Of a stretch of 64,000 bases of DNA, positions 25,462 to 55,650 are shown one piece after another. The position numbers and the translations under genes were made by a program. Source of the DNA: Boletus sp. NGJ (taxonomy: Eukaryota; Basidiomycota; Agaricomycetes; Boletales; Boletaceae); contig JAGTXK010000094.1 of the NCBI GenBank assembly GCA_019096195.1, positions 1-64,000 of the forward strand. Direction: 5' to 3'. Every line of letters starts with the position of its first letter. Within the stretch, counting starts at the first letter, position 1. Under the pieces are notes generated by a model. It was given only the letters and a program-made list of their open reading frames with translations, searched no databases and was not told where the DNA came from.

Positions 25462-26078
25462 TATGATCATTTGTAGTAATAAGGACAGCAAAGACACTGA
25501 TGGTGAAAATGATAAAATGCTTATAGTCAATGCAATCCCAATCACTTTTTATGGCATTTCAAAGAAAACAATCCCTCCTAGGCCCAAGTTCTTCAATTTT
25601 AACAATATAGTCTGGCCACCTGTTCATCTGAGCATTCTACAAGCTATTGGCAACAATGAGTTGGCATCTGGCTTTACATTTCTGAAGATCTTTTCTGCTC
25701 CAGTGAAGGTAACAGACAATTAGCCTGAGTAGTCTGTGATATAGAAATCATGTACTTGTATTTTAAATGCTGTCAAATGGCTATCATGCCAGTACTTTGT
25801 TAATTGCATGCAAATCTCTGACTCAAAGGATGTGTCTTGAGTATTCATACTAGGAAAATAGTACATGATGCAGTACTGAACCACTTTTTATGAGTCAATG
25901 TGCAACTTGTCAACAATGGTTCACCATATACCACTTATAGGTATGTTCTTATGCTTTCTAATAGGCATTGCAAGATCTGATTTTATTTAGTATCTGTTGT
26001 GCTCCTTTCTGTAATCTGGAACATATTTAAATGCAAAGCAGAAAGTGACAAGGTGCATTTTGTCTGATTGACTGTCCC

Positions 26079-26940: not shown

Positions 26941-26989
26941 CTCAATTATCTCAGGTCCTTTATTTGAGATTCTCAATTTCACCCCACTC

Positions 26990-29186
26990 CACATGCTATA
27001 TTTTCAACTGGTATCCTATTCATTCCATTTGAACTCTTTCCCACAATTCATAAATTCCACTAGTAGGGTTTTCATGCTGTGCAAGCCTTCTCTTGAGACA
27101 ACCCCAAAGATGTTCAATAGGGTTTAGATCAGGGGTGAAAGGAACAACCAACAAAGTGAAGGGTGGAGCCTAAACTTGATATCTCAGGCATTGCCAACTG
27201 AGGCAATACGTATATGAGAGAGAGAAGAGCAATTTCAAGGCTAAAAGGGAACATGGTACTCTACCAGCTACTTTATATACTACTGATAGTGGCGCACGGA
27301 CTGTGCTATGCTATGATGTCATAGGTACTGGATATGATGTCATAGGAACAAGGAAATATTAGTGTCCAATGGTGAAAGAGAGAAATGGTGGAATGAAATG
27401 CATATGGTATGCATATATAGGTGAAAGACAGTCCATGATACTCTAGGCATGGCTACATTGTGATATATCAAGGGAGATCTAATAGAGGGATGAAATGAAA
27501 GGAAAATGAAAGAGTGACGCTTAAGACATTGCATAGGTTGATCATTAGATCTGGTATTGAGATATGTAGGATCGTATCAGGGATAGATCAGATCTTGTCT
27601 AATGTATCTAGGGATCTAATAAATAGGTTAATCTAGTATTGGCTTGATTAGTGCTTGTATAGAGTACCAAGTGCTGCATTAGGTACAGTCTATGAGCCTT
27701 GTGTGGATACTGAGCACTGCATCAGACATATCCATGGGGTGTTGTAGTTTAAAGACATGTGGGCCTATGCTTGTGGTGATGAATGCTGGGGTTAGCCGTG
27801 AGGCTACTTGGTGTTGTAGTGTAACAGATACAACTAGGGTACTACTAATGAAAGTGTACTCAGATGTGGGTGACAGTATGATGTATTATATGGTGAAGAA
27901 TATGATGGATGACTACTCTATATGTATGTGATGTGAGGCTAGAATGGAGCTTGGTTGATAGGTAGGCGAATGTATCATCTATAGGTAGTGTGAGAATGTA
28001 GAGAGGGTGGTAATAAATAGTAGGTATCAGATGTGAATGTTTCAAGGGGACTGTGCAGGCCACACCATAGTACTGAATTCTTGCTCCTATAGCCAATTCT
28101 TGAGCCTGCAGGTATGCTTGAGATCATTGTCCTACTAAAAGATAATGTCAGGAGGATTGAGACCATAATACTCCAGGGTTTGTTGGAGTTCATTCTTCAA
28201 AATTGAAGGTAGAGGTCTCCATCCATCCTATCATCAATCTTGGTAGCAAAACCAACTCCCTCCCAAGTTATACAGCCCCACATCATGAAAGAACCTCCTC
28301 CAAACTTGAGGGTTCCCTGCACCAGCCTATCACTAAGGCCCTCACCTGCCCTTTTCCATGCCCATTTGTGTTCATCTAACCCTAGGTAACTGATTTTGGT
28401 CTCATCAGACCATACTACCTTCTTCCAGTCCTCTATAGTCCAGTCCTTATAAGCATAGACAAAATCCAAATGAGTTTTGTGATACCTAGCAGAGAGAATA
28501 GGGCATTTGAACTTGACTACAGTTTTCATACCAGCTTTCTTCAAGTGGAGGCAGACAGTACTGGCAGAGAGAGATTGGTTGATGATGTTGGTAAGTGATC
28601 TGGTCACTTGGACAGCATTTTCAGCCTTTCCAGAGATGGTAAGATGTTGGGCATGATAGATATTGATAGGAGAAAGCTTGGAGGGACGACCTCCAATAGC
28701 TTTAACAAGGTCAGAACACTCTTTGGAATGAAGTTTAGATATGGCAGAAGGGCTAACACCAGTTTGCTTGGCAATGGCTTCACCAGAATGGCCAGAATCA
28801 AGCAAAGAGAGGATGGTATTTTGTTGAGTAAGAGAAAGAGATCTGACTATGATGGTGGTTGAGAATCAAGAAGTGTGGGAGCTTTTTTAAACTCAGACAT
28901 ACTTTTTATATGTGTATCTTTGTTTGTACTAACAAACAATGGCAATTATACTACAATATGACTAAGATCCCACTTAGCAATTCAAAAGCTCAAAAACTCT
29001 TTCCATGATATTACTGTTTTGAATTGACTATATCTCTATAGCCTGGGAACAAATCACATGACCTAGGGGGCGATTCTTGTACTATTTATAACTCCACCAA
29101 AGCTAAGCAAATTTCCCACAGTGTCTGGCAGTGCACTTCACACACTGCTGTAAGGGTTAGTATGGAAAGGGTTTTTGAGGTCACTG
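26990..29186 (-). mobile_element. Tc1/mariner element, 3'-truncated, carrying a solo LTR
   Basis: The right terminal inverted repeat ends GGTCACTG at 29186, followed by TA. The minus-strand transposase starts near 28850 and shows helix-turn-helix segments (IAKQTGVSPSAISKLHSK), a GGRPSKLSPIN hinge, KKVVWSDETKI and a degraded QDN site. A solo LTR interrupts it between WPAQSP and DLNPIEHLW. The last coding part follows at about 27130-27000 (IEHLWGCLKRRLAQHE, IYELWERVQMEW). A TAG replaces a Gln just before the QDN site and another stop interrupts the segment after it. The left inverted repeat and the SMPRR tail are missing, so this copy is dead. It is paralogous to the plus-strand element at 31602-34163, which lies in opposite orientation. 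Confidence 0.82.
27136..28044 (-). mobile_element. Solo LTR, family shared with 32676-33762
   Basis: The 909-base unit reads TGAAAC...TTTCA on the minus strand and has a perfect five-base target duplication (AGGGG on the plus strand) at 27131-27135 and 28045-28049. It sits inside the Tc1 transposase at the SPDLN motif. It contains a TATA-like AGTATATAAAGTAG near its downstream third. Compared with the sister copy it has lost most CG dinucleotides. Confidence 0.85.
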
Positions 29187-29199
29187 TATGTTCTGGTGT

Positions 29200-31150
29200 G
29201 TCATGTGTGGTGAGTTTCTATTCTGTCCTGCTGTTCTTTAAATGACAACTGAGCTCGTCAGACAGGTACTCCCCTCCACAATTGGAACAGAGTCGTTTCA
29301 CTGGTGTCCCATGCTGCATTCTCAGCCAGAACTCAAACTCCAGATATGCCTGGAATGTATTGGACTTTGCAGCCATGGAGTTGACTCATGTGTAGTGTGT
29401 GTGATCATTGGTAAAAGAGCAATAATAGCTCCACTTTCTGAGCATCAGGATAGAAGAAGGTCCCCAAACATTGATATATACAGTACCTCCTCACCAAGGT
29501 GTTCTATTCAGCTGGGATCACAATCCTTCCCAATAGGTGCATGGGTTGCTTTCCCATACTCACAAGACACACACTGACCCATAGTGCTATGATCCAGATC
29601 TAAAGTCACACTGGTGATCATCTCTTTCGCTATTATCTCACATATTGTTCCAACTCTGATATAAGACAAGTGAGCATAAAGATCTTCCATGGTAAGTCAC
29701 TGGTCCCCCTTTGCAGTCACTGTGGTTGCTGAGTAATCAGATTGTGTTCTGTATAGACCATTTGCAACCTTGACTTGGCCCAAAAGATGGCGATTCATAT
29801 CAAAGATCTAACATATTCCTCTATTGAAGACTGCAACAGCCAGCCTCTGCAAGATGACTTATTGAAATGAGGGTTACTTGCATACTCAGTGTGTATAGGA
29901 CATTTTTTAAGAGAATTTGTGACTAAGTGTCACCATTAGGGAGATAAATGGATAAGTCCCCTTGTCCAATGGAATCAAACATTCTGTTGTCCATACCTCT
30001 GATTGATTTAGATGGAATACTAATAAAGTTCAGGAATCATTCATAACATGGAGAGAGGTGCTGTGAGGCACCACTATCATATAGCTCCAGAATCTCACCA
30101 TGAAGATGCCAACATTGCCTGTAATAGGCAATTCAGGTTTAGGTACAGTGAGCCAGGTACTATCAGGTTGGATGGTATCTTTGTCACTTGAGGTTGCATT
30201 GGCAGAGACTGATGACTTAGTTTTTGTTTTGTTGTCTTTAGCTTTCTTCTCACATGATTTCTATCCCTTAGGTGCCTAACCAGCTTTCCCACTGCCCTCC
30301 TTCCAGCAGTCTCAATCTTTATGACTGGACCAACCACAATTGTAGCAGTCACTGCTGAACTTCCTCCTCTTTCCTTTTTCTTTCTTGGACAATATGTCAA
30401 CTCTGAATGTGGCATCCTCACTCAATAGGTTCTTCTCCTTTCCCCCACTTTGGAGTGTAAGTCTATCGTATTTCTCCAACACAATGTCCATCAGGGTGTC
30501 TAACATGATGACAGTGCCTTATAAGTGCATTGTGGAGGACAATGCAGTGAGTCCAGGATTATATGAGCATGGAAGTGATGCATATATGATGTTAAAAAGG
30601 TCTTCATCCATCACCAGTCATTCCATAGAGGCTAGGTCTTCATAAAGTGCAATGATCTTGTCTATATATGTGCATATATCTCCCTCTTCTATCAATTTAA
30701 GCTCTCCTAGCTAACACTGCATCTCAGTGCTAATGATAAGGGATCGCTTCTTGAAGAGAGCACAGAAGGTCATGAAGTACTCATGAGCAGAATTCTTGTT
30801 CACAAGACAAATGAAGATGGTGTTAGAAAGGGTGTTTGCAATCATGTATCACACTTTTGTGTCCTTTTCATCCCAAGTCACCAGATCCTTCTTATAACCT
30901 GCAACCAACTTGAGTTCAGTATTATCAGTTGGTGTCCATCTAGGTGTTTTCCCAATTGCCAAATCTATGGGCTTTGCCTTGCTCCCATTGAGGTATCAAG
31001 CAAGTCCCCAACTGCTAACAGCAAGTTGAAGTTGGACCTTCCAAGTGGTCCATTCCTTGCCAGACACATCAAGCTTAGGTAGCTTGACTTCTTCTGATAC
31101 AGTACTAGTCATTTCAATGGATGTATATGCAGTATCGACATAAATAAATG
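29200..31150 (-). mobile_element. Ty1/copia-like retroelement fossil (gag and start of pol)
   Basis: Minus-strand fragments in transcription order match a copia Gag region (about 31.1-30.3 kb, beginning with the KLPKLDVSGKEWTTW-type motif), a CCHC-like zinc knuckle (CYNCGWSSHKD, about 30.3 kb) and, near 29.65-29.5 kb, a GAG-pre-integrase zinc motif (CVSCEYGKATHAP). It is heavily decayed with many breaks and AT-biased. No integrase core, reverse transcriptase or LTR was seen, so this is a truncated old copy lying between two Tc1 elements. Confidence 0.7.
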
Positions 31151-31424
31151 TGTTTGATCTATAGATTAAAGAGCAGGGCTCATAACCTGTAGAAATGTAC
31201 TCAGTATAGAACAGAGTCTGTGACTGATGTATTGCACACCTGTAGAAATGTACTACAGAGTGTAAGTATGAAATACAAAGTATAATTGGGATGATCTCAC
31301 CTCAGTACAGGATGGAGCCTGTGACTGAGGTAGAGACAGGTCAAAATCTATCTTATCTACCTGAGAATTATGTAATATGGAATTGTCTAGGTCTGTTTGA
31401 CTACATGAAGAATAACAACACATA

Positions 31425-31590
31425 GTGCTCATAGTGAGGGTCCAACTGAATAGTGGTTTTAGTACTATAACAGTGTCTCATAGTCTGTTCATAATGTAAC
31501 CATAGTCTGTTATAATACTGTCATAGTGTCTCATAGTATTCTCATAGTACTTCCATAGTGGTCATAGTGATGCCATAGTTACCATTTCAG
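31425..31590. repeat. Degenerate CATAGT-rich tract
   Basis: The hexamer CATAGT recurs about ten times with irregular spacers such as CTCATAGT, GTCATAGT and CCATAGT. It abuts the left end of the Tc1 element at 31602 and looks like an eroded minisatellite. Confidence 0.7.
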
Positions 31591-31601
31591 AACAGAAGTT
31601 A

Positions 31602-34163
31602 CAGTGACCTCCAAAACTGTTGCAATGTCTAACCCTGATGTGGTGCGTGCAGCACACCACAAACACCTGTGGGAATTACACTTCGCTTTGGTGGGAACAA
31701 ACAAGGTACACACTCTTGGCTACAATCCGGCCTCTGGATCATGTGATGTGGATCAGAGGCTGTGGAGTTATGTCTATTTCAAAACAGCAATACCATTGCA
31801 ACAGTTTTGCACCTTTTAGTAGAGAATGTGCAATCTTGTTGAAATATCATCATAAGTGGCAATGTTTGGTTATACAAACAAAGATACACATACAAATATT
31901 ATGTCTGAGTTTGAAATAGTTCACACACTTCTTTATTTCCAACCACATCATCATGAGATCCATCTCTTCTACTCAGAAAAACACCATTCTCTCTATGCTT
32001 GATGCTGGCCAGCCAGCTCATTCTATTGCTGCCACCACTGGTCTCCATGCTTCTACCATATCCAGGCTCCACTCCAAAGAGCGTTCTGAGCTTCAGAAGT
32101 CTGCTGGAGGTCGCCCATCCAAGCTTTCTCCTATCAATCTTCATCATGCCATCCGTCTTATTTCATCTGGAAAGGCAGAAAATGCTGTCCAGGTGACCAA
32201 GGCTCTCACCAATGTGGTCAACCAACCCCTCTCTACCTCCACAGTATGCCGGCACTTGAGAAAAACTGGTATGAAGGCTGTGGTAAAGTCTAAACGCCCC
32301 CTTCTATCAGCTAGGCATCGCAAGGCTCGCTTGGACTTTGCCTATGCTCATAAGGATTGGACTATAGAGGACTGGAAGAAGGTAGTATGGTCTGATGAGA
32401 CTAAAATCAATCGCCTAGGGTCAGATGGGCGAAAATGGGTCTGGAAAAAAGCAGGTGAAGGGCTTAATGATAGATTGGTTGAAGGGACCTTGAAGTTTGG
32501 AGGAGGTTCTCTCATGATGTGGGGGTGTATGGCTTGGCAGGGAGTTGGCTATGCTACCAAGATTGATGGTAGGATGGATGGAGACCTTTACCTTCAGATT
32601 TTGAAGGATGAGCTGCTGAATACTCTGCAGTATTATGGTCTAGATCCTCCTAACGTGATCTTTCAGCAAGACAATTGAAACGATCACCAATTATACCACC
32701 TATTTATTAGCACTCCTACCTACACTTTCGTACCACCTGCAGACGATACACTCGCCTACCCTCACCCAACCTCCATTCTAGCCTAACCCCACATACACCT
32801 AGAATAGTCACTCACCGTATCCTCCCCCATATGATACACCACACGACCGCATACACCCATGTATGCTTTCACTAGCAGTACCCTAGTCGTACCCACTATA
32901 CTATGACACCAAGTAGCCTCACAGCTAAACCCTGGCCTCACAGCCACAAGTAAGGCCTGCACGCCTATAAACTATGCCTCCCCCATGGACCTACCTGATG
33001 CAGCGCTCGGTAGCCACATCACGTGACATAACGCTGTATGATGACAATAACCCCTTTGTCATGTACACGCTCGTTACACGCATGACACCCGTAGACCATA
33101 CCTGATGCAGTGCTCGGTACGCTACACAAGTACCAATCAGGAGCTCGCCTCCAGATCCTTGAATCCCCCACTTAATCCCCGATCTCCAGCCCACACCATA
33201 GATCACCCACCGTACCGCCAAGTACTAATCAAGCCCACACTAGATTAATCCAAGTACTGATCAGGCGAATGTCAGATCACAACCCTTAGACCTAGACAAG
33301 ACCCGATCCATCACCCGATATGATCTTGTCTCGATACCAGATCCAACGATCACCCCATGCAATGCCTTATGCATCATCCTTTCATTTCCTCTTTCGTTTC
33401 TCATCTCTGTTCCTATCTATTAGATTCCCCTTCCAGATATATCACACGTAGCCACGCCTAGAGTGCTCCGGACTACATTTCACCTACATGCGCATACCAC
33501 GTGCATCTCATTCCATCCCTAGATACTTTCGCCATTGGACACTAACAGTTCCTCATTCCTGTGATGCCATACCCAGTACCCTACGACATCACAGCACAGC
33601 ACGGTCCATGTGCCACTATCAGTAGTATATAAGTAGCCGGTAGAGTACCATGTTTCACTTAGTCTTGAAATTGCCTTTCTCTCTGTTGCATATTGCTTTG
33701 ATTAGCAACGCTTCAGATATTGGGTTTAGGTTCTTTCTTTCGTCCATTGCAAGTTCCTTTCAGAAGGCTAGCAGATCAAAAACAACCTCCTAGTGGAATT
33801 TATGAGTTATGGGAGAGAGTTCAGGTGGAATGGGAGGGGATACCACTTGAGGAGTGTCAGACATTAATTGAAAGCATGCCTAGGAGGGTTGAGGTAGTGC
33901 TCAAGGCAAAAGGAGGCTATATCAAGTACTAATACCCACTTCATATCAAGAGATGCAAAACTGTTGCAATGGTATTGCTGTTATGAAATGGACATAACTC
34001 CACAGCCTCTGATCCAAATCACATGATCCAGAGGCCGGATTGTAGCCAAGAGTGTGTACTTTGTTTGTTCCCACCAAAGCGAAGTGTAATTCCCACGGGT
34101 GTTTGTGGTGTGCTGCACACACCACATCAGAATTAGACATTGTAACAGTTTTGGAGGTCACTG
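31602..34163 (+). mobile_element. Tc1/mariner element with internal deletion and solo LTR
   Basis: Terminal inverted repeats of more than 200 bases (31602 to about 31815, and about 33950 to 34163) start CAGTGACCTCC and are flanked by TA at 31600-31601 and 34164-34165. The plus-strand transposase opens at 31953 (MRSISSTQKNTI), with HSIAATTGLHASTISRLHSK, a GGRPSKLSPIN hinge, KKVVWSDETKI and IFQQDN. The frame then runs into a solo LTR. The C-terminal end resumes after it (IYELWERVQVEWEGIP and SMPRRVEVVLKAKGGY, ending near 33932). About 55 residues, including the third catalytic acid in the PDLNPIE motif, are missing between the two parts, so the copy cannot be active. It retains far more CG dinucleotides than its relatives and is probably the youngest Tc1 here. 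Confidence 0.87.
32676..33762 (+). mobile_element. Solo LTR, sister of 27136-28044
   Basis: The 1,087-base unit begins TGAAACGATC and ends GTTCCTTTCA, matching the minus-strand copy along its length. It lacks a target duplication, and the flanking Tc1 coding sequence has lost about 165 bases, so it probably formed by recombination between two nearby insertions. It contains AGTATATAAGTAG as a promoter candidate. Confidence 0.82.
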
Positions 34164-38088: not shown

Positions 38089-41000
38089 ATGAACCAGGCT
38101 CGCGCTAATCAGCTCAACAAACGCTTCTACGATGTCTTGCATGGCAAGGTCCCGCTGGAGCCTCGTAACTCTCGCCTTTTCCTCGAGGCCATTTGTGCCC
38201 AGGAAGACACCGCAAAGTGTGTGGACAGTCTTGTTTCGAGTCAGCATGGACTACCTTCCATCCAAAATGCTATGCGCTTCGATCTCTCTCCGCCGTTCCT
38301 CAATGGTCACGCCACCAGTACCCTTGAGTACTTACTATGCGCCGCTAACCTCGGTGGAGGTGTGCTAGATCACATCCTTTTCACTATCGTGGAACCTCCT
38401 ATTTTCTGGTCGCCATTCGCGCAGGGATTTGAGGCGGGGGCGTTGACGGAGAAAGCTCAGCTCGTCTTCGCAAAACTTCTAGATAGGCTGATCGCTCTCA
38501 AGGACAAAAATGCCTCTCCATATAGAGAGCTCGCCTCACGGTCATCTATTATCAACAAGCTGGTCGAATCATCTGAGCACGAGGTGCGGCAGATTGCTCA
38601 CCACATCAATCACGTCCTCGCTGCCTTTGCTTCCGGTGGTACTCTTGGCGATTCGTGTGGCCCCGGGGGCCGACATGACAACGACCTTCCGAATTTTCGC
38701 GACATTGCCATCCTCCCTACAGCTGATGAGATTCTTAGCACTCAGCCCCCTTTCATCAGATCCGCTTCTGTTTTGGATGATCCAGGGGCGTCCGACACTC
38801 GCGTCGCGGATTATTTGGACAATACCTTTCGCATGCTCAGGGAAGATATGATTTATGACATGCGTGAAGAGCTTCAAATTGCGCTGAAGAAGAAACCTGG
38901 GCGGCATCGCGGTCTCCACATTAACGGGCTCTCCATGGTCGATGTGTACACTGGCTCGCAGGATAGAGGCTCCCGTTGGGGACTCGTCCTTCAATGCCAT
39001 CACGACTTCCAACAGCTCCAAGGGTTAAAGGATTTTGATGATAGGAAAAAATTCCTCTCGGACGATCCTGGGTTCAAGATTCTTAGACACCAGTCACTCG
39101 CTTGTCTTATTGCAGATGAAGATATCATTTCCTTCGCTACTGTTCTCCGCGTGGATGATCTACTCGCCCAGAAGCCCCCCAAGATCGTCCTCCAGCTAGA
39201 AGGCGAAGCCAGCACGTCCAAAACCCTCTTTCGTTTAAGCACTGCCATGCACGCACGGCTGCTTCAGATCGATACTGCCTTGTTTGCATACGAACCTATT
39301 CTTAAAGCACTTAAGAACATGCAGCTTGTTCCTCTGTCGGATGAGTTATTGTTCTGGAACGAGGGGGAGACACTTCCACCGCCCCACACACAGGTTGACG
39401 AAGTCGTACAGCGGCTCTCAGACAACCCCTCCGCGGACCTCCAGTCGATCCTTGCGATGTCCAAATCGGTCCAACTCGATTCCTCTCAAGCAGAATCACT
39501 CCTTGCTGGATTATGCCAGCGTGTAGCATTGATACAAGGGCCCCCAGGTGCGTATTCGCTTTTCAACCATTCAACCGGATGTGCATTCTCATCTACGTTG
39601 TATATTAGGTACTGGGAAGTCTTTCATTGGTGCTCTTCTCGCTAAAGCGATCCACGAGCACACATCTCAAACGATCCTCGTTGTGTGTTACACCAATCAC
39701 GCTCTTGATCAATTCCTCGACGATCTTATGGGGATAGGTATTGCTGCTAACTCGATTGTTCGTATCGGTGGACGCGCAAGCGCGACCGTGCAGCACCTCT
39801 CGCTACAGTCCCAGGAACGCGTCAAACACCCACGCTCTAAAGCGGAGTGGACCCTCATCGAACAAGCCAAGTCCAGGTCTGCCTTTTTGGTGGACCGTTT
39901 ACAGAGCTCTTTCCAAGCACTTGCGAAAGCAGACAGAGCGATCTCGCTCGACGACATACTCACTCACATTGAATTCGAAGACTCTGAGTTCTGGGATGCG
40001 TTCCAGGTTCCGTCGGAGCCTGACGGATTGCAGATCATGAGGAAGGGGAAAAAGATACAGCAGGATTATCTCCTATGGCAATGGTCGAAAGGGTGGGATG
40101 CCGGAATATTCAAGAACTACCCCACAGTACGTGATGCGGCAACGATCTGGAGCATGGATTTGCCCTCTCGTCAAGCGTTTCTCGCCAGGTGGAAGGGAGA
40201 CATCATGAAGGGTGTCGTTGCAGATATATGCAACGTTGGCAGGGATTATAATAACGCTCAAGATGAATTGACTCGCAGATTCGGAGAATCTACAGTGGCG
40301 TTGTTGAAACAAAAGAGGATTATCGGGTGTACGACCACTGGGGCTGCCAAGTATGCGGAGGATCTTGCCGCGGTTAGTCCGGATGTGTTGCTCGTCGAAG
40401 AAGCTGGCGAAATCCTGGAGAGTCATATTCTGACGGCTTTGGGCGAAAAGACGAACCAGATGATCCTCATTGGTGACCACAAGTATGTATTGCTTTCGCG
40501 CAGTGCGACATACCTGAATGCTCATACCCACTCTAGACAACTTCGCCCGAAAGTCAACAACTATCAATTGACGGTTGAGAAAGGAGAAGGGTTTGATCTT
40601 AATAGATCGCTCTTTGAACGCCTCGTATTGAAGGAATTCCCTCATCAAACTCTGACGACGCAGCACCGTATGAGGCCTGAGATTTCCGCGTTCATCCGAG
40701 AGCTGACCTATCCCGAGCTCATCGACCACCCAAGTACAAAAAACAGGCCCGATATTTGTGGTGTTCAATCTAACATCATCTTCGTCAATCATGCACATCC
40801 CGAGGATGAAGAGACACGAATCGCGGATCGCAGGGACGCTGGGTCCACGTCATCAAAGCAGAACACGTACGAGGCCGAGATGGTCCTCAAGATTGTGCGT
40901 TACCTCAAACTACAAGGATACAAGAACACGGACATGGTCGTCCTGACCCCGTATTTGGGCCAACTGTTCAAACTCCGTGAAGCGTTGCAGAACGAACACG

Positions 41001-42110
41001 ACCCAACTTTGAATGATTTGGATGCCAACGACCTGCAGAAGGCTGGGTTACTGGGTCAAACAGGCCCGGTCGCTACTAAGGCTCACCAGGCTGGGATACG
41101 ATTGGCGACCATCGGTAAGGTTTCTATAAAGTATGACGTTCGATGTATGTAACAACCTCAATAGATAATTACCAGGGCGAAGAGAGCAAGATTGTCATTG
41201 CCAGTTTGACCCGGTCAAATCCTAACAACAGCATCGGATTCATGCATTCCCCTGAACGTCTCAATGTCCTGCTCTCTCGTGCACGGGACGGATTGATTCT
41301 GATCGGAAACTCGCACACGTTCCTCAACTCCAAGAGAGGGGCTGGCCTTTGGGAGGAGTTTTTTTCGATGCTAAACAGAGAACGGTATCTCTACGATGGC
41401 TTCCCGATCAAGTGTCAGAAACACCCCGCAAGGACTGTGATCCTCACGCAACCCGGAGAGTTTGACAGTCGATCCCCTGACGGCGGATGCACAGATCCCT
41501 GGTAAGTCTCATCGAGTTCTCCGTTTCAATTCCCCATTTCACTCACTACCTCGCTAGTGGTGTGCTTTTGAAGTGCCAACTCCACGCGTGTCCGAAGAAA
41601 TGCCACCCACTAAGATCAGCTCCTGGCCAGCCTGACGTCCATTCCTCTATGCTGTGTATGCACCAGTCCAAGGAGAAGTGCCCCATTGGCGTGCATACGA
41701 TGTCCTGGAAGTGTCACCAGGGGCGTCCCGCAACTTGTTCCTCATGCGATCGTCTGGCCAAGGCTCTCGAGAAGCAGGCTAAATTGGATATAAAGGCTCA
41801 AGAGGAACGTGACAAAGCGCAGCGCGAGTACGACATGAAAATGACTGAACTTCAGGCGAAACTGCAGTACCAGCAGGAGGCGTTGAACGACATCCAGGCA
41901 CAGAAGGACAGGGAGAACGAGCTCAAGCAAAAGGAGAAGGATATCGAGGATGTGAAGCATCAGATCCGAGATGCCGAGAATGCGGCGAAACAGGCGGCAG
42001 CGAAGGCCAAGGTGTCGTCTCAGAATCCCCCCCAAGGCGCTGCCAATGGTCCCACTTTCCAATGCACCCGCACCACCTCGTCCCATGTTCCCGTCTCCTG
42101 CGAGAGATAA
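38089..42110 (+). CDS. ZNFX1/Hrr1-like SF1 RNA helicase with NFX1-type cysteine cluster
   Basis: Exons 38089-39547, 39609-40482, 40537-41114, 41165-41501 and 41558-42110 give about 1,266 residues. The N-terminal domain carries the ZNFX1 hallmarks NFRDIAILPT and YLDNTFRMLREDM (residues about 205-265). The UPF1-like SF1 motor follows: Walker A GPPGTGKS (about 484), VVCYTNHALDQFLDDL (Ia), LLVEEAGEI (II), LIGDHKQLRP (III), QHRMRPEIS (IV), DNYQGEESKIVIASLTRS (V) and ERLNVLLSRARDGLILIGN (VI). A Cys/His cluster (CGVLLKC...CPKKCH...C) and a long coiled coil follow. Relatives act in small-RNA silencing (fission yeast Hrr1, worm ZNFX-1) and antiviral RNA sensing (human ZNFX1). The frame ends at a TAA inside GATAAG, where a +1 frame opens the AAA protein, so this may be the first half of one large protein. 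Confidence 0.85.
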
Positions 42111-45100
42111 GTGGGAGGATCAGAAGCGTGTCGATGGGGCGCAAAATGACGCCATTGACAAGATCATGGACATGACTGGGCTCGAAGAGGTCAAGGAGAA
42201 GATCTTGCGCGTCAAAGGTAGCCTTGACACGATGCGCCGCCAAGGCGTGCCTATCGATAAGGAGCGTATCAATATTGTTTTACTCGGGAATCCGGGGACA
42301 GGTGCGACGCGTTGTGATGTATGAAGAAAAAAACCACTGATTCCACGTTCTAGGGAAAACCACGGTTGCGAGGCTCTATGCAGAATTCCTCGAGTCCATC
42401 CAGGCACTCCCGGGCAAGGCGTTCCTGGAGACTACGGGTTCCAAACTCTCCTTTGAAGGGGTGCAAGGCGCTCAAAAACTGGTTGATGACGCATTGAAGG
42501 CGGGCGGAGGTGCCATCTTCATCGACGAGGCATATCAACTCGTCAGTGAGCATGATCAGTCTGGAAAACAAGTCTTGGATTTCCTCCTCGCGGAGATGGA
42601 GAACAGGGTTGGCACGCTCGTGTTTATCCTCGCTGGGTACAGCAAAGAGATGGAGAAGTTCTTCGAACATAATCCGGGGTTACCAAGTCGAGTACCCTAT
42701 CAGCTAACGTTCGCGGATTACACCGATAAAGAGCTGCTGTCGATGTTGGAGGATCTCGTTTACAAGCGCTACAGTGGTCGGATGAAAGCCGAAGACGGCA
42801 TCAATGGACTGTACGCTCGCATTGCCGTCAAGCGGTTGGGTCGCGGAAGAGGCAGACCCGGCTTCGGGAACGCCCGTGCGTTGCAGAACATGTTCGCCAA
42901 AGTCCGTGAACGTCAGGCCGACCGAGTCGAGAAAGAGCGCCGGTCAGGAATGCAGGTGGACGATTTCCTCCTGACGAAGGAGGACCTTATTGGACCTGAT
43001 CCGGCTCACGTCCTTCCCAACAGCGCACCTTGGGCGAAGCTCCAGGGATTAATCGGCTTGGAGTCCGTCAAGGACTCTGTACGCCAACTTTTTGAGCTTC
43101 TGCAGACAAATTATCAGCGAGAACTGGCGGAGAAGGAGCCGATGGAGTTCTCTCTCAACCGGGCTTTCCTCGGTTCGCCGGGGACAGGGAAGACGTCAGT
43201 CGCCAAGTTGTATGGCCAGATTCTCGCCGATCTTGGCATGTTGAGCAATGGTGAAGGTGAGGCAACGGGTCCGTCGTATATCATATTTGCGGCGTTAAGA
43301 GTACGTTTTGTCAGTGGTGGTCAAGAATCCGGCAGACTTCGTAGGGGCCCACTTGGGACAATCGGAGAAGAACACAAAGTCGATTCTGGAGAGTACACGA
43401 GGGAAGGTGCTCGTCATCGACGAGGTTCGTTGCATCGTCTGCCTGGGCCAACAGTCTCTGATGAGCGTCTAGGCGTATATGTTGTATAGCAAGAACGCGT
43501 CGGATCCTTACAAGACCTCGGTCATCGACACGATGGTCGCCGAGATCCAAAGTGTTCCCGGTGAAGATCGGTGTGTCCTCCTCCTTGGATATAAGGACCA
43601 GATGGAAGAGATGTTCCAGGTAACGTCGTCGCAGCCTGTGTTCCCACCAAACTTGACACCACCGTCCTCAGAACGTCAATCCTGGGCTTTCTCGACGATT
43701 TTCGATCGAGAACGCCTTCCATTTTGAGGACTTCACGGAACCCCAGCTCATGAAAGTCTTTGAATACAAGCTCAAAGATCAGGATTTGTCTGCTACGGAC
43801 GACGCCAAGGAAGTGGCGCGCGAGCTGCTCAGTCGAATGAAAAACCGCCCCAACTTTGGCAATGCGGGAGAGGTTGAAAATCTGTTAGGACAGGCTAAAG
43901 CGCGGTATCAGAAACGCGTGGCATCAGTTCCTGCTTCCCAAAGGACGGATGTCGTGTTCCAGCCTCGGGATATCGATCCCGATTTCGACAGGGGTCAGAA
44001 CGCGTCTGAAAACCTCGCAAAGATGTTCGCGGATGTCGTGGGTTGCGAGGAAGTCATAAGGAAACTCGACGGGTACCAAAAGATCGCCCGGATGATGAAA
44101 GAAAAGGGTCTGGATATGCGTACTCAGATCCCGAGTAACTTTGTCTTCAAGGGACCACCAGGTGGGTTGTACCCAGTCGAGGATCTGTAAATTACTCACG
44201 CAGAACAGGTACGGGAAAGACGACGACGGCTCGAAAGCTTGGGCAAGTATACTACGACATGGGTTTCCTGGCCTCCAAAGAAGTAGTGGAGTGTTCCGCG
44301 ACCGACTTGGTAGGACAGTACGTCGGGCAAACGGGACCGAAAACGAAAGGAGTATTCGAAAAAGCCCTCGGCAAGGTACTCTTCATTGACGAAGCTTATC
44401 GGCTGAGCGAAGGCCATTTCGCTAAGGAAGCGATGGACGAGATTGTGGGATTGATGACCCACGAGCGCTTCATGAACAAGCTCGTCATTATCCTGGCTGG
44501 CTATGACCACCAGATGAATGAGCTGTTGGCAATCAATCCGGGGCTCTCCAGTCGTTTCTCCGAGGAGATTGTCTTCCAGAATATATCCCCGGAGCAATGT
44601 CTGGAGCTCCTCGATAAGGACCTGCAGAAGAACCGGTTCAAAGTTCCCGAACTCAGCGACAAGGCCTCACCAACCTACGTGGAGATGCAAGGTGTCGTTG
44701 CTCAGATGTCCGCACTTCCGTCTTGGGGTAATGCACGTGATGTTAAGACACTTGGGAAGACGTTGACTCAAAAAGCTTTTGCTAACATGGCTAACAGTGG
44801 GACCTCGGTGTCTCTCTCTGCGGAAGAGGCTCTAAGCGTCATGAAAACGATGCTGCAGGAGCAGCTGGCCCGGCAACGTATAGCTCGCAACGCACCCTCC
44901 TCGAGCTCTATGCCAATGGCAAGTATGAATGGCTCAGCGCCACCACGGCCTTCCATGTCCACATCGACGAATCAGGCGTCCAAGCGTGCTCCGCCGCCTC
45001 CCCCGTCATCTTCGCCCCCGAGCGAGCCGCCCAAACAACCAGGTTTGAAGAACACATCGCGGGCAGACCCATCGACCCGGCAACGCTCCAAACGCCCCCC

Positions 45101-45632
45101 TCCGCCTGCAAAGGAATCGACTGAGGATCAGCCTCTGAATTACAGAGTTGCACGTCGGGATGCCGGGGTCTCTGATGCTGTTTGGAATCAGCTTCAGGCA
45201 GACATCGCGGCAGAGAAGGAGGCGAAGAGGAAAGCCGCAGAAGAAGAACGGCGTCTCGAACAAGAGGTCAAGAAGGCTGAGAAGCAGAACCAAGCTGCGC
45301 GGGCACGGGCGGTGGCACTGGAACATGCTCTGGCCGCGGCCAAGGACAACGTGGAAAAGGAGCGCCGTGAGATCGAACGTCAGCTTGAAGAAGCGCGCCG
45401 TCGCGAAGCGGAGGTGAAAGCCGCAAGGGAAAGGGCCATTGCTGCTCTGAAGAAGAAGCAGCAGGAAGAAGAGGAACAGAGGCGAAAGGAGCTAGAGATG
45501 CAGCGGAAACTTGATCACATGGGTCTTTGTCCCGCGGGATATCATTGGATCAGACAGGGAGAGTGGGTACAGATGTGCGGGTGGTTCACATTTCATCTCG
45601 CATGGCGGACTTGGTATGCATTAGCAACTTGA
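42085..45632 (+). CDS. Triple CbxX/SpoVK-type AAA+ ATPase (possibly fused to the helicase)
   Basis: Exons 42085-42301, 42354-43256, 43315-43424, 43473-43619, 43672-44161 and 44209-45632 encode about 1,096 residues. Three AAA+ modules of the CbbX/SpoVK/EccA type follow one another. Module 1: GNPGTGKTT and AIFIDEAYQL. Module 2: GSPGTGKTS and VLVIDEAYML. Module 3: GPPGTGKTT and VLFIDEAYRL. Each ends with a NPGL-S-R arginine-finger segment, and a Pro-rich linker and Lys/Glu coiled coil complete the protein. Such ATPases remodel protein complexes; the fungal target is unknown. The first ATG in this frame (42085) overlaps the helicase stop by 26 bases in a +1 frame. At the C-terminus, after CPAGYHWIRQGEW, the other frame would give the conserved RCAGGSHF ending, so a small indel near 45565-45575 is likely. 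Confidence 0.82.
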
Positions 45633-47754: not shown

Positions 47755-50700
47755 CGGATCGCAAACGGCAGCTCAACAAATGCTTTCTCGATATACTCAG
47801 CGGGTCTACAGATGTCGAACGCCACAAAGCTCTCTTTCTTGAAGGCCTTTCTCTGCAAGATGATCCAGCAGCCTGCGTAAGCAAAATAGTCGAAAGTAAG
47901 CATGGGCTTTCTGCGGTACAGCAGGCTATGCGCCACGACCTGAGCACAAGATTTATGAACGGGCTTGGCACCAATGTAATCAACTATCTCCTCCGTGCCA
48001 GCGACGTGGGAGATATACTCGACACCGTCCTTCTCCACATCCTCAGTCCGCCCATCTTTTGGAACAAGTTCTGCGAGGAGTTCGAGAAGGGAAATCTGGA
48101 CGAGAATGCAGAATCCGTATTCGCGCAATTCCTTGCTTATCTCCTAAGGATGGAAAACACGGATACTTCCTGCTACCGTGACCGCGCCAAGCAACCTTCC
48201 ATCTTCAATAGGCTCGTCGGCTCGGACCATCCAGAGGTCAGAGCAGCTGCCAACCTCATCAAAGAGATCCTCTCTACTGCATCCGTCACTTCCGCCCTCT
48301 CCACGCCAGAGGGTCCTGGAGGTCGTCACTATAACGACTTCATGAATTTTCGCGACATCTCTATAGTTCCCACTGCAAATGAAATCCAATGCACCAAGAA
48401 GGCTTTTTATAGGCATGCGTCATTGCTCGACGACCCTACCGCCAAGGAGACTCGTACCGCAGATTACCTCGACAACACATTCCGCCTCTTGCGAGCAGAC
48501 ATGTTGTACCAACTGAAAGAAGAACTTAAACCCATCCTTACCAAGGATAACAAGAAGAGGCAGCGCGGAACTGTGATAGAGGGGTTGTGTGTTGTAGGCG
48601 TTTATACGGGACCTGCCGATCAGAAGACCCGGACTCGACACGGAATTGTGCTCCAATGTAGCGGAGACTTCAAGATATTCAGGACAGCGACCGAATGACC
48701 GCCCTCAAGGGTTCTCGTGGTTCAAAATTCCTCAATCCTTAGCATGCCTTATCGCCGGTGGTCAGCTACTCACCTTGGGGACCATCCTACGAGTGGAGGA
48801 TTTGTTGGTGAAGAAACCTCCCGCTGTCGTCTTTCAAATCTGTGGCGAGGCTAGCTTCGTCAAGGCACTTCCGAAGCTGAATACCGCGAAAGAAGTCAAG
48901 CTCGTCCAGACAAACACTGTCATCTATTCCTTCGAGCCTGTTCTCAGGGTACTTCCAACGATGAAAATTGTCCCCTTGGCAGACGAGATACTGTTTTGGG
49001 AGAACGGGATTCCCATCGGTAGCCCGTCAACTATCATTTCCAAGATTACCATCCCTCTAGCCAGAAATCCGTCTATGGATATTCAGCCATTACTTGGGAC
49101 TCCGACCCCCATTAAACTCGACCAAGCACAAGCGGTCTCATTACTCACCGGTCTGAACCAAAGGGTTTCTCTGATACAAGGTCCTCCTGGTACGTTTTGT
49201 TCAGTTACATTGCAGAACACTTTGCAACTGACTCGAATGCAGGGACTGGCAAGTCCTTCATTGGAGCACTCCTCGCCAAGGCCCTACATGACTTCTCTGA
49301 CCAGACAATTCTTGTGGTCTGCTACACGAACTATGCACTCGACCAGTTCCTTGAAGACCTATTGAAGATCGGCATTCCAGGATCCAGCATCGCGCGCGCC
49401 TAGGAGGACGCGCTAATTCCGCAGTTTCTCAGCTTAGTCCGAAAAACCAGACCAAGGAGAAATTCCTCCGCTCAAACGCCGCATGGACCATCATTGACAA
49501 TCTGAAGGAAAGAGCGGATTTTTTGCGTGATGTGCTCGAGACCACGTTCAGAGGTTTTCTCGCGTCTGATATATCCTTTGAGGATATGCTCACCTACATC
49601 GAGTTCGAGGATACGGATTACTCCGATGCATTCCAAGTTCCCGAGTCCATGGATGGGATGATTCGCGTGGGAAAGCAAGGGGACGCCATTGACACCACAT
49701 ACCTCATCTCTCAGTGGTCCCGAGGACGGAACGCTGGGATATTTGAACATGAACCACATATCCAGGAAGCCGCAGAAATATGGTCGACGACTGACGCCCA
49801 ATGTCAACAGAGGTTGGCGGATTGGAAGTTGACTATCCACCGGAGCCTGGTGGACGATATCTGGAAGCATGGAAGGGACTATGATGATGAATGTCAAGAT
49901 GAGCTTTCGCCGATCACGAGGCTCCAGGATTTCTTATAATGCCTGATAATGCCTTGTCATATAGACCTAGCGTTTTTCATGTTATCCGACCATTGTTATT
50001 TGGTTATTGTACTTAAGAAGGTCTTATAAGCGCTGATAATAGCCTTGCCCAGGCCCCCATTGTCGCGTGACATGGCAAACATTCACATTGTCACAAAAGC
50101 AGATATAACGCTAGGGTGGTCGTCGTGATGCGCGCAAATTTAGCGAGTCCAGCGTAGCGGTACTCAAGCAGAAGCGGATCGTTGGGTGCACTCCGACTGG
50201 GGCAGCAAAGTATACCGAAGATATCAGGGCTGCTTCACCCGGGGTATTGCTCGTCGAAGAGGCAGGAGAGATTCTCGAGAGTCATATCATCACCGCACTT
50301 GGGAAAAATACAACTCAAATGATTCTCATTGGGGATCACAAGTAAGTTACTACTACTACTTTCGTCCCATTATTGATTGAGTAACGTTCGCAGGCAGCTC
50401 CGACCCAAAGTGAATAACTACGAACTGACGGTCGAAAAAGAAGAGGGATATGACCTGAACAGGTCTCTCTTTGAACGCCTCGTCCTTAAGGGCTTTCCGC
50501 ATGTAACCCTCACAGCCCAGCATCGCATGCGTCCCGAGATTTCTGCTCTTATTCGCGAGTTGACGTACGCTGGACTCACTGACGCGCCGAAAACCCAGAA
50601 CAGAGACAACATTCGTGGTATCCAGAGCAACATTGTCTTCGTGGATCACAATCAAGATGAAGATGACGAGAAGCGAATCTCTGATCGTGGGGATGGTGGT

Positions 50701-53700
50701 TCGCTGACCTCAAAACGAAACCAGTTTGAGGTAGACATGGTTATGAAGATCGTCCACTATCTCTTGCAACAGGGATATAGAAGCGAGAATATCGTCCTTC
50801 TCACCCCGTATCTGGGGCAGTTATCCGCGCTCCGCGACGCTATCGAAAAGGACGCCGATGCGCTTATGAATGAACTAGATTCTGGGGAACTCACTCGTGT
50901 AGGATTGTTGGCCTCACCGACACCACCTGCCAAATCTCAGAAAACACGCATTCGGCTAGCAACCATTGGTCTGTGCAATACAATTCACTTTCTGACTAAT
51001 CTGTTCACGGTGTGCTCCTCAGATAATTACCAAGGTGAAGAAAGTGATATCGTGGTTGCGAGCTTGATTAGATCAAACTTCAACGGCGCGGTTGGATTCA
51101 TGAAGTCTCCCGAACGTCTCAACGTTCTTATATCTCGTGCACGCGATGGCCTCATTTTGATTGGGAATTCGCGAACTTTCAAATCCCCCAAATTGAGTGG
51201 GGATCTATGGATGAAATTTTTTAGTCTCTTACGAGACAGTAACCATATATACGACGGCTTTCCCATCAAGTGTGAACGGCATCCAAACAAGACTGCCTTG
51301 ATCATGTCTCCCGCCGAGTTCGATAGCTTGGCTCCTGACGGCGGGTGTACCGAGCCATGGTAGGCCTTATAATCTGTGTTGTGTTTGGAGTTCTCACGCA
51401 CTACTGCAGTGGTTCGCTGCTTAACTGCGGGGTTCATACTTGGACCTGGTCAACCGGGTGTCCACACGACGATGCCTTGTAACCACCTTTTCAGCGCGCC
51501 ATGTCCCGCGAATATTCACCAGCTGAAGTGGAAGCGCCCACCGGGCCCCCCAGAAAAGTGCACGTCTTATGAGAAGGAAAGACAGCGCCTGGAGAAACAA
51601 GCTAAGCTCGACCTCGAGGCTCAGGAACAACGCAAGGCTGCGAAACGTCAGCACGAGTTAGACATGACGGAGCTTGAAGCTCAGTTACAGTTCGAGAAGG
51701 AGAAGTCAGCCGATATCCAAGCCGCTAAAGACAGGGATGACGAGAAGCGGCAAAAGGTGAAGGAAGTCGAGGATGCGAGGAAACAGGTGAAAAACGCAGC
51801 GAAACAGGCCGCCGTCCCTGGATCCCAGACACCTGCGTCAACGTCGGGGTCCGGAAACGCAAATTTGATCCCGCCCCAGCCTACTCATTCCACATCGAAT
51901 CAGTCTCAGGACGGAAACCGTACCCCCGCTCATCCGCAAAGGTCTACGTTACGTCCCGGTGTCGTCCCCCGCTCGAGATAAGTGGGAGGACCAGAAACGC
52001 ATCGATGGCGTGCAGAATAACGCCATTGATAAGATCATGGATCTGACAGGGCTTGAAGAAGTCAAGGAACAGATCCTAAGGATCAAGGCAAAGATCGACA
52101 CGATGAAGCGCCAGGGTGTTGCCTTGGACAAGGAACGTCTCAACCTTGTTTTACTCGGTAATCCGGGGACAGGTTAGCTATATTTTCCATGTCGGTGAAT
52201 TACTAATGTCCCTCTGAACCAGGAAAAACGACGGTTGCGAGGTTGTATTCGCAATTTTTAGAATCCATTCAAGTCTTGCCTGGCGACACATTTATGGAGA
52301 CCACTGGGTCCAAGTTATCCTACGAAGGAGTTGGAGGTGCACAGAACCTGATCAATCAAGCGCTCCAAGTTGGCTGAGGAGCTATCTTCATTGACGAAGC
52401 CTACCAGCTTACGAACGAAAATTCTGGGAAGCAGATCCTCGACTTCCTACTCGCTGAGATGGAGAACATGGTGGGCACGCTCATCTTCGTCCTTGCGGGA
52501 TACAACAAAGAGATGGAGAAGTGCTTTGAACATAACCCCGGCTTACCGAGTCGCGTTCCATATCGACTCCAATTCGCAGATGTAGAACTGATGACGATGC
52601 TTGAAGACTTGATCCTCAAGCGATATCAGAGCAGAATGGACATTGAAGATGGCATCCGTGGTCTGTACAGCTGCGTCGCTGTCAGACGTCTCAGCCGCAG
52701 CCGAGGTGTGCCAGGTTTCGGCAACGCTCGTGCATTGCAAAATATGTTCGCGAAGGTCTGTGAACGCCAAGCAGAACGCGTCGAGAAAGTGCGTCGAGCC
52801 GGGGCTTTTGCGAATGATTTCTTCATGACCAAAGAAGACCTGATTGGACCCGATCCATCACAAATGCCGAATAACGCAACCTGGACAGAGCTGCAGGGGC
52901 TCATTGGGTTCGACTCTGTCAAACAGTCCGTGCGCAACTTCTTTGCGCTCGTCGAGACCAACTACCACCGTGAACTGGAGGAAAAGGAGCCTCTTCAGAT
53001 GTCGCTGAATCGAGTTTTCCTTGGTTCTCCGGGTACAGAAAAGACGACCGTCGCCAAGCTATATGGTCAGGTACTTGTGGGTTTGGGTCTCTTGAGTAAT
53101 GGGGAAGGCAGGTGACCATCGTTAGGGGGTTAAAACACTAACTAATACGTCGTTCTTTTAGTCGTTGTAAAGAACCCGTCAGATTTTGTAGGCGCATACT
53201 TGGGACATTCAGAGAAAAACACCAGAACTATTTTGAATAGCACTCGAGGCAAGGTCCTTGTGATCGACGAGGCGAGTTCGAGCCATCCCTGTTCAACTAA
53301 GATGATCGTTGACTTGTACGCTAGGCATACATGCTATATAGTGGCAAGAGTCACGGGCAAGATTCGTTCAAAACTACTGTCATTGATACTATCGTCGCAG
53401 AAATCCAAAGTGTGCCTGGTGAAGATCGATGTGTGCTGCTTCTCGGTTACAAGGAGCAGATGGAGGAGATGTTCCAGGTATGTCTTCCGTGTTATTTACT
53501 GACTTTTCTGACGGCGCACCGATGTAGAATGTCAATCCAGGTCTAGCCCGTCGTTTTGCGATCGAGAATGCGTTCAACTTTGAAGACTTCACTGAACCAC
53601 AGCTTATGGATATCTTCAATTACAAGTTAAAAAAGCAAGACCTCGCCGCTACCGACGATGCGATGGAAGTCGCATGAAAGATCGTCCCAACTTTGGTAAC

Positions 53701-55650
53701 GCAGGCGAGGTGGAGAATATGCTTAGCCTTGCGAAGGACCGATATCAAAAGCGGATGTCGTCTGTACTACCTCACCAACGATCCGACGTCGTTTTCGAAC
53801 CCTAGGACCTGGATCCAGACTTTGACCGAAGCCAGAATGCATCCGCAAACTTGGCGAAAATGTTTGAAGATGTGATAGGGTGCGATGAAGTCATCCAGAA
53901 ACTTGACAAGTACCAGAAAATTGCACGAACGATGAAAGCCCAGGGGCTGGATATGCGCAAGCAGATCCCAAGTAACTTTATTTTCAAGGGACCGCCCGGT
54001 GAGCACGAATTCGGTAACCTCCAGCGTGTAAACGTGTTCATGTTTGTCTCGACGATCAAGGCACCGGGAAAACGACCACTGCGCGGAAAGTTGGTCAAGT
54101 GTACTACGATATGGGGTTCTTATCCTTCACAGACGTGATCGAGTGTTCGGCATCTGATTTAATTGGTCAGTATGTGGGACAGACGGGACCCAAAACCAGG
54201 AAGCTCTTCGAGAAGGCGCTTGGAAAAGTACTGTTCATCGACGAGGCGTACCGCCTGGGTCAGGGGCACTTCGCGCAGGAGGCAATGGACGAGATCGTTG
54301 ATATAATGACGAAAGAAAAGTTCATGAACAAACTGGTTATAATTCTTGCCGGATACGACGACGAGATGAATAAGCTTCTAAAGGTCAATCCTGGCCTTTC
54401 GAGTCGCTTTTCCGAGGAGATCCATTTCCATAACATGACCCCTGATCAGCGTCTTGCACTACTTGACAAGGACCTTCGCAAGAGCAACATTGTCGTCACC
54501 GAGATGGCGGACCCAAATTCCCAACACTATCAACAGATGCGAACAATTGTCTCCCGGATGTCCATCCTATCGTCGTGGGGAAACGCTCGCGACATCAAGA
54601 CACTCGGTAAACATATGTTTCAACAAGCATTTGCCAACGCTTCCAATGGCAGCGGACCACCAACTCTCGTCGTTGCGGAGGCCATAGACATCATGCAGTC
54701 CATGCTCAAGGAGCAACGAGAGAGACTTGGTGTTCCTAGCAGTCGCACCGTGAACTTGCCACCTCCCGTAGCAACAAACTTTGGTGCTCCACCACCACCC
54801 CCTACCGCATCTTCTTCCTCTTCTCAATCATCGAAGCATCCACCGCCTCCACCTTCTTCCAACGTGTCCAAGCCTCCGCCGCCGCAATCATCCTCACCCA
54901 AGTCGGGCGGATCGCAACCGCTCCCTGTGCAAACGCCTCGAAATGATCGGCCTTCGAAGCAACGCGGAGGACAGACGGCTAGTACTAAGCAGTCAACACT
55001 AACCAGGCAGACGACCCAAACCAAACCGGCCAAGTCAGCTGCATCCAAGATACCTTTCGTTCAGTCTCCACCTTCACAAGTCTCGCGCGCACTTGCAGAC
55101 AGCAGATTCCAGTTCGCACGTTGAACGAGATCCAGGAGTGTCGGACGAGGATTGGAACCAGCTACAAGCCGACAAGCGCGCTGCAGAAGAGCAAAAGAGA
55201 CGTGCCAAGGAAGAGCAAGACAGGCTCCAGCGATAGTTGAGGGAAGCGCGGGAAGCGGAGGAACGAGCCAAGCAGCGCGCGGCTGCTCGAGAGAGAATCA
55301 AACAGCAGGCTGCGGTAGACAAGGTGGAGCAAGAGAGGGTTCAACGCGAGTTGGAAGCTGCTCGGAAGCGTGAGGCGGAGGCCAAAGCTGCTAGGGAACG
55401 AGTCGTTGCAGAGCTGAAGCGGAAGCAACAAGAAGAGGCTCAGAGGCAGCTACGGCAACAGGAGATACAGCGTAGACTAGGAAGATCGGGACGCTGCCCG
55501 ATGGGATATCGTTGGGTGCAGCAACTTGGGGGATGGCGATGCGAAGGGGGTTCCCACTTTGTCAGCGACCAGCAGCTCAGCGCATCACCAGCAGTCTTAA
55601 AGCTTGGTTTGGCATTATATGAGATTACATTGCTAAGATTTAATTTTTGA
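47755..55650 (+). pseudogene. Decayed tandem copy of the helicase and triple-AAA locus
   Basis: The region matches the 38089-45632 locus in the same order throughout. Helicase part: FRDISIVPT, YLDNTFRLLRADM, GPPGTGKS, LLVEEAGEI, LIGDHKQLRP, QHRMRPEIS and DNYQGEESDIVVASLIRS. AAA part: GNPGTGKTT, an altered second Walker A (GSPGTEKT) and an intact-looking third module. Introns lie at matching sites. Lesions: no ATG near the conserved N-terminus; frameshifts near 48690 and 49400; foreign DNA at about 49910-50145; a TGA for Gly just before AIFIDEAYQL (52376); a small deletion near 53675; a TAG at about 53803; stops near 55124 and 55236. The copy is a pseudogene, though some segments could still be translated. 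The same +1 offset before ARDKWEDQKR is present near 51960. Confidence 0.85.
49910..50145. other. Non-homologous insert in the pseudogene
   Basis: About 235 bases interrupt the helicase-like coding sequence between QDELS and SESSVAVLKQ, with no counterpart in the intact copy. The insert carries two related stretches, TCTTATAATGCCTGATAATG near 49931 and TCTTATAAGCGCTGATAATA near 50025. It could be a short non-autonomous element; no clear terminal repeats or target duplication were found. Confidence 0.5.

Follow-up and report, generated by a model that had tools for sequence, protein, structure and literature searches.

A gene of the fungus Boletus sp. NGJ, named here copy A, was characterized in a 64,000-nucleotide stretch of DNA (the window; assembly GCA_019096195.1, contig JAGTXK010000094.1, hereafter C94, positions 1 to 64,000). 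It is best explained as encoding one fungal fusion protein, in which an RNA-moving helicase would be joined to an AAA ring built from two chains, with a role in feeding RNA silencing; taken as a whole, this explanation is judged about evenly poised between right and wrong. The fusion itself looks real and old. In the Boletus sp. NGJ genome no near-intact fusion other than copy A was found; two paralogues, copies B and C, lie on the same contig, and a second fusion was detected elsewhere, at locus L052.

Genome contigs were searched with the AAA1 exon of copy A and two matches were obtained, one from a Prevotella (L053, 32% identity) and the other at L052 on contig NYXK01000109.1 (63% identity). 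The record of this contig is, by title, a Deltaproteobacteria metagenome-assembled genome (MAG). The surroundings of L052 comprise intron-split genes, an Argonaute gene and a 2EXR-family gene, which we take to be fungal. In the bin of L052, 25 matches to PF04082 (fungal transcription-factor family) were listed, 24 of them over the cut-off, against none in 14 control genomes; none of the 25 listed is on L052's own contig. NYXK01000109.1 is apparently a fungal contig wrongly binned in a bacterial MAG. This bin, G001, titled Deltaproteobacteria, appears to contain fungal contigs.

The L052 fusion gene (3889-11377) has 2,332 codons and is stop-free after the removal of six introns, with the order helicase, Cys/His cluster, coiled coil, three AAA modules, second coiled coil and CPVGFRWIKQRTGYRCAGGSHF motif. 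A single exon (7391-8139) extends from the zinc finger through the coiled coil and linker into AAA1, as far as its Walker A. All six introns coincide in position and phase with introns of copy A (six of its nine), three of them inside Walker A motifs, and the identity to copy A is 44% in the helicase half and 52% in the AAA half. Because L052 is one open frame and shares six introns with copy A, descent from one fused gene, vertical or by transfer, would best explain the match. The physical linkage of helicase and AAA parts, proposed in a first-pass annotation of the window, is supported by L052, as is the supposition that the combination may occur in other fungi; an absence of the fused parts from other species can no longer be held against it.

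Exon and intron boundaries of copy A were placed by hand and are detailed in Table 1. The gene starts at ATG 38089 and contains nine introns of 47-61 nt with GT..AG ends. The helicase half comprises 1,266 codons with no stop throughout, and its frame stops at TAA 42108-42110, in exon 5; the AAA half comprises 1,109 codons without a stop, counted from 20 codons before 42106. The AAA frame is in use from the residues SPARD (42094) onward, because copies A and B encode the same five residues with four of the five codons differing at silent positions only. The coiled coils of the fusion were judged by eye.

Table 1. Features of copy A and copy B in the window
Feature	Position	Strand	Remark
Exon 1: helical domain at the N-terminus, block of ZNFX1 type ('GGRHDND..RDIAILPTADEI..YLDNTFRMLRED'), first part of helicase Walker A	38089..39547	+	
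Exon 2: helicase GTGKS, VVCYTNHALDQF, VEEAGEILE, GDHK	39609..40482	+	
Exon 3: helicase QLRPKVNNY, QHRMRPEIS (AAA_12)	40537..41114	+	
Exon 4: helicase DNYQGEES...SRARDGLILIG, start of Cys/His cluster	41165..41501	+	
Exon 5: Cys/His cluster with one C..H.C...CH unit, then a coiled coil (by eye) and the linker	41558..42110	+	
Frame-change interval, coiled coil to AAA1	41956..42093	+	Possibly a weak intron, an error of assembly or a true lesion
Start of AAA half in AAA frame (SPARDKWEDQKR...NPGT), first portion of AAA1	42094..42301	+	
Exon: remainder of AAA1 (Walker B, NPGLPSR, GNAR), start of AAA2 (GSPGTGKT)	42354..43256	+	
Exon: AAA2, pore-loop region through Walker B	43315..43424	+	
Exon: AAA2	43473..43619	+	
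Exon: AAA2 lid (GNAG, without sensor-2 Arg), start of AAA3 (GPP)	43672..44161	+	
Last exon: AAA3 with CbbX-like pore-loop region (GQYVGQT), then a Pro-rich linker, the second coiled coil (by eye) and an altered C-terminus	44209..45632	+	
Copy B, tandem paralogue with the layout of copy A	47760..55650	+	Pseudogene

After splicing, copy A holds GPPGTGKS, VEEAGEILE, GDHKQLRP, QHRMRPEIS and DNYQGEE, which we take to be among the superfamily 1 (SF1) helicase motifs, and its helicase half matched Pfam AAA_11 (E=1e-25) and AAA_12 (E=2.5e-40). The SF1 motif set described at first pass was confirmed in this spliced form. Among PDB sequences the best match was ZNFX1 (9q9z, E=1.9e-89), followed by UPF1 (2.1e-29); ZNFX1 is an animal helicase of immunity. 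The ZNFX1 alignment is collinear in four segments; it takes in the N-terminal 'RDIAILPTADEI...YLDNTFRMLREDM' block, weak by itself (i-Evalue 0.035), and aligns the Cys/His cluster with the ZNFX1 finger region, in agreement with the ZNFX1-specific N-terminal motifs and the cluster with coiled coil noted earlier. A 'PT..E...PF.R...YLD..FR.LRED' block in the N-terminal part is mostly kept in copy A, copy C and L052. Residues 1-180 of copy A were predicted to be mainly helical (predicted local distance difference test, pLDDT, 62-90 per ten-residue block; overall mean 53.6), and the top match in a test for an ARM-type N-terminal fold was ZNFX1 at E=0.012, with none of 1,108 matches at E<=0.001. One C..H.C...CH unit was recognized by eye in place of an NFX1 zinc-finger array, and Pfam NFX1 finger matches were none. 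The RZ finger gave no Pfam match in copy A up to its altered end (among the best 25 of 30 families) or in the C-terminal frame of copy B, and none at E<=0.001 in the last frame of L052. The helicase of copy A is assigned to the ZNFX1 family of SF1.

In the AAA half of copy A, Pfam AAA matched three stretches and AAA_lid_6 two. PDB relatives at E<=1e-8 were two CbbX sequences and EccA1, with no others. The AAA1 exon matched TIGR02881 (E=5.2e-49), TIGR02880 and TIGR03922, as well as PDB 3syk, 3zuh and 9lur; the two AAA exons scanned matched the SpoVK, CbbX and EccA models well under the equivalog cut-offs, the best equivalog-model score of the AAA1 exon being 166.6 bits versus a cut-off of 422.95 for SpoVK. 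Each of the three modules of copy A has Walker A, a Walker B of DEA type and NPG..R; the Walker B of AAA1 (IFIDEAYQL) was read directly, having been missed by the pattern search. Introns interrupt Walker A of the helicase, AAA1 and AAA3, so that the Walker motifs earlier called intact are indeed complete in the three modules, but only after splicing. The AAA3 pore-loop region aligns with 'DLVGQYIGHTAPKT' of CbbX. The lid motif is GNAR for AAA1 in copy A and L052 (NAR in CbbX), and for AAA3 GNAR in copy A and GNGR in L052. AAA2 is likely regulatory because its sensor-2 Arg is missing: its lid is GNAG in copy A, copy B and L052, and GNGG at L062, a locus described below. The three modules are assigned, from the database matches, to the CbbX/SpoVK-type AAA+ subfamily. 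Effector domains were sought in a Pfam scan of both halves of copy A, which gave none.

Copy B contains an in-frame TGA (52375-52377) in AAA1, a stop ahead of AAA3, at least three frame changes apart from the intron sites of copy A, and an AAA2 Walker A altered to GSPGTEKT; it is a pseudogene. The proportions of nonsynonymous (pN) and synonymous (pS) differences between copies A and B were calculated for alignable stretches of at least 40% identity. pS was saturated across all segments (0.77-0.87). For AAA1, AAA2 and AAA3 pN came to 0.15, 0.17 and 0.19; the helicase core gave 0.27, the Cys/His-coiled coil part 0.34, the N-terminal part 0.36 and the tail 0.55. The AAA modules are more conserved than the helicase between the two copies. 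Since copy B is a pseudogene, part of this divergence is neutral and constraint is, if anything, understated.

Copy C, at C94:66493-70659 and downstream of the window, contains the N-terminal part, helicase, Cys/His cluster and coiled coil; neither it nor the tandem copy B had been noticed at first pass. The AAA half gave just two weak coiled-coil matches against L016, which ends 2.8 kb beyond copy C, and a genome search with AAA1 and AAA3 gave nothing on C94 outside copies A and B. All matches of these two queries in the genome lie behind the helicases of copies A and B, the exceptions being decayed fragments on contigs C20 and C63. The C20 fragment (L030:2598-5939) holds AAA3 with tail, a short-chain dehydrogenase/reductase (SDR)-like fragment (by eye) and an N-terminal fragment; this order of tail, SDR-like fragment and next copy's head is as if the A-B interval had been copied elsewhere. 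The C63 fragment is at L029:4799-5086. Short-chain dehydrogenase-like frames (by eye) are present between copies A and B and also ahead of copy C.

A further helicase of the family of copy A, on contig C65, carries a CCCH finger, and its C-terminus, Cys-rich by eye, gave no Pfam match; the AAA half had no match at this locus, and the gene is a possible counterpart of the silencing helicases Hrr1, SAD-3 and RnhA in this genome. In the bin of L052, a CbbX-type triple AAA gene (L062:10447-13699) encodes AAA2 and AAA3 within one frame of 930 codons; its AAA1, with Walker B FIDDAH, lies in an overlapping frame. The helicase/AAA family is, judging from these sequences, modular. A tree of copies A, B, C, L052 and C65 was set aside, since the C65 and copy B residues had been picked via the copy A query, which favours an A-C65 grouping; it gave support of 97 for copies B and C with L052 versus copy A with C65, and 51 inside. 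For the quartet of A, B, C and L052, the three possible splits were backed by 24, 18 and 22 residue patterns, and identity to copy A was 0.54 for copy C and 0.45 for L052. The AAA queries matched five viral-contig loci in all, one of which (L051) was read by eye and is phage-like. Helicase alignments gave no relative in viral contigs (A1 and A3) or in genome contigs (A1). Within the scope of these searches, a viral or prokaryotic origin of the fusion was rejected.

With regard to RNA silencing, Piwi matches were found at six places of the Boletus sp. NGJ genome (two on C122 and one each on C40, C124, C10 and C22), RNA-dependent RNA polymerase (RdRP) matches over the cut-off on four contigs, and Dicer-dimer matches at four places. 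At L052 an Argonaute gene (11746-14784) stands tail to tail with the fusion, 368 bp apart, with ArgoN, ArgoL1 and Piwi over the cut-off and ArgoL2 under it. Schizosaccharomyces pombe Hrr1, Neurospora crassa SAD-3 and Mucor RnhA, of 999, 1,160 and 1,231 aa, are presented in PMC5384783 as helicases acting in RNA silencing, and NCU09357 as an uncharacterised RNA helicase more distantly related to them. In other papers, NCU09357 is named 'stage V sporulation protein K', with transcripts reduced in the ada-6 mutant (PMC6468284), is given again as an ADA-6 target (PMC11708020), and is named 'ATPase, DNA/RNA helicase, nonsense-mediated mRNA decay protein' and placed among 20 rapidly evolving sex-associated Neurospora genes together with QDE-2 (Argonaute) and an RdRP (PMC3571971).

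Two unrelated names are what such a fusion would yield, and NCU09357 is for this reason probably the same helicase/AAA fusion; carrying helicase and SpoVK names in print, it suggests that the fusion has probably been annotated already. If the two are the same, the Neurospora gene would offer an immediate route to testing. No published description of a helicase/triple-AAA fusion was found among the listings and cited passages of a literature search that left out most subscription papers. Fungal databases hold proteins annotated with both helicase and AAA domain sets, so the existence of the fusion is probably not new; the intron evidence and the NCU09357 link may be.

The predicted protein has about 2,300-2,400 residues. 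A putative helical-repeat domain at its N-terminus is followed by the ZNFX1-family SF1 RNA helicase, a short NFX1-like Cys/His cluster and a coiled coil; next come the three CbbX/SpoVK-type AAA+ modules and a second coiled coil, and CPxGY...CAGGSH is a conserved motif at the C-terminus. The helicase would bind RNA and travel along it; the target would feed RNA silencing and is probably aberrant RNA or that of viruses or transposons. CbbX forms hexamers and each chain holds three modules, so two chains, dimerised through their coiled coils, may form a single ring of six AAA modules. AAA1 and AAA3 would act as the motor of the ring and AAA2 would be regulatory; by pulling protein on the target RNA, the ring would dismantle or reset the complex. 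An RNA-defence role is plausible; the Argonaute gene beside the L052 fusion, the RNAi genes of this genome and the listing of NCU09357 with QDE-2 and an RdRP agree with it. The more specific version, in which a single polypeptide with RNA helicase and AAA+ threading ring finds foreign RNA and strips its proteins in one step for silencing or virus defence, is regarded as unlikely. If true, the mechanism would tie RNA recognition physically to protein unfolding and give a clue to how ZNFX1-type helicases handle their RNA complexes.

Several observations weigh against this explanation. The three AAA+ modules, reported at first pass as following the helicase directly, are all there, but the reading frame of copy A changes from the coiled coil to AAA1, somewhere in the interval of about 41956 to 42093. 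Near 45570-45590 a further offset takes a conserved C-terminal motif out of frame, so that 45632 is probably not the ancestral end; of the span first given to the gene (38089-45632) the start was retained. For L052, exon boundaries were placed manually on the evidence of frame and of similarity to copy A, so that the intron match is partly guided, and the placement of its AAA2 acceptor was revised once; the split frames of this gene were seen independently of such guidance. Copy C is a helicase half without AAA modules, and L062 has no helicase match within 15.5 kb. Co-occurrence with Argonaute, RdRP and Dicer, proposed as a check at first pass, holds for the genome and, for Argonaute, beside L052, but C94 gave no match to Piwi, RdRP or Dicer-dimer, and silencing-gene adjacency is seen at one of two fusion loci. 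NCU09357 is likened to the fusion through its two names; in PMC3571971 its faster evolution is significant on the N. intermedia branch only, and PMC6468284 reports its expression in conidiation. Neither this expression nor membership of the sex-associated set requires an RNA-defence role.

In the linker, 125 (copy A) and 39 (copy B) frame-restoring GT/GC-AG intron candidates were counted, the best 30 of each being examined; a splice matrix from the nine copy A introns only was applied to GT-AG candidates of 40-129 nt, 21 in A and 16 in B, and the best 8 of each were examined. Among those examined, none ending before SPARD reached the lowest known intron score of 10.1 (best 6.3 in A and 7.2 in B), and an intron across the linker was rejected because such candidates score under the gene's own introns. 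Against this rejection, candidates that cut out SPARD do reach the threshold (A 42012-42123, 10.1, 112 nt; B 51959-52049, 14.3, 91 nt), but they exceed the known intron lengths and would delete residues common to A and B. The linker interval of copy A contains a homopolymer run, and homopolymer runs are a frequent site of assembly errors. The offset common to A and B was rejected as proof of an ancestral split gene, since L052 lacks it and copy B has several other frame changes.

Two separate adjacent genes, a helicase ending at 42110 and an AAA gene beginning in the linker, would account for the junction offset in both A and B, for copy C and for L062. This is very improbable: L052 joins the halves in one open frame with a single exon over the junction, the frames of copy A overlap without intergenic space, and the AAA frame of copy B has no ATG from the upstream stop to the SPARD block. 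An open frame through both halves is seen in L052, whereas in copy A they stand in different frames without a good intron; copy A may accordingly be decaying, with both offsets real mutations, no working fusion in the genome and the AAA-less copy C as the functional gene. The pseudogene state of copy B and the fragments on C20 and C63 are in line with such decay, which we consider rather unlikely, given that, the offsets aside, both halves of copy A are open with their catalytic motifs and that the linker has a run of the kind where assembly errors are common.

As regards function, a role in general mRNA surveillance or in spore or fruiting-body development, rather than defence, is a substantial possibility that falls short of even. 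The helicase core matches UPF1 as well (E=2.1e-29), yet it matches ZNFX1 far better (E=1.9e-89), and its fungal relatives SAD-3, Hrr1 and RnhA act in RNA silencing (PMC5384783). The tandem copies, with a pseudogene and dispersed fragments, look like an immune family evolving by birth and death, and ZNFX1 acts in innate immunity (PMC11959080), as would suit a self/non-self or virus sensor whose AAA ring works as a switch rather than an unfoldase. That alternative is quite unlikely: Walker A, Walker B and NPG..R are kept in 3/3 well-conserved modules, which suggests ATP turnover, and the Pfam scan yielded no effector domain.

Other features of the window were long frames on the minus strand at 11848-17388 with retroelement-like integrase and RNase H-like stretches (by eye), an AT-rich region at 18000-32000 (GC 36-42% per 2 kb versus 54-62% upstream) and a transposase-like frame (by eye) at 31920-32678. 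AAA matches with identical scores at C35:320454-321810 and C50:4491-5847 suggest unmerged duplicate assembly sequence.

Compared with known systems, the fusion shares with ZNFX1 (PDB 9q9z) the N-terminal block, SF1 core and first zinc-finger segment in the same order. The human protein carries six NFX1 fingers plus an RZ finger at its C-terminus (PMC11959080), whereas the fusion has one NFX1-like unit, three added AAA+ modules and no RZ match where scanned. Hrr1, SAD-3 and RnhA are fungal helicases of one kind with that of copy A, but their lengths are too small to hold an AAA part like that of copy A. NCU09357 of N. crassa, named both RNA helicase and SpoVK, is likened to the fusion by names only. 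CbbX, SpoVK and EccA belong to one AAA subfamily with the modules of the fusion, which differs from them in having three modules per chain, an AAA2 without sensor-2 Arg and an attached helicase.

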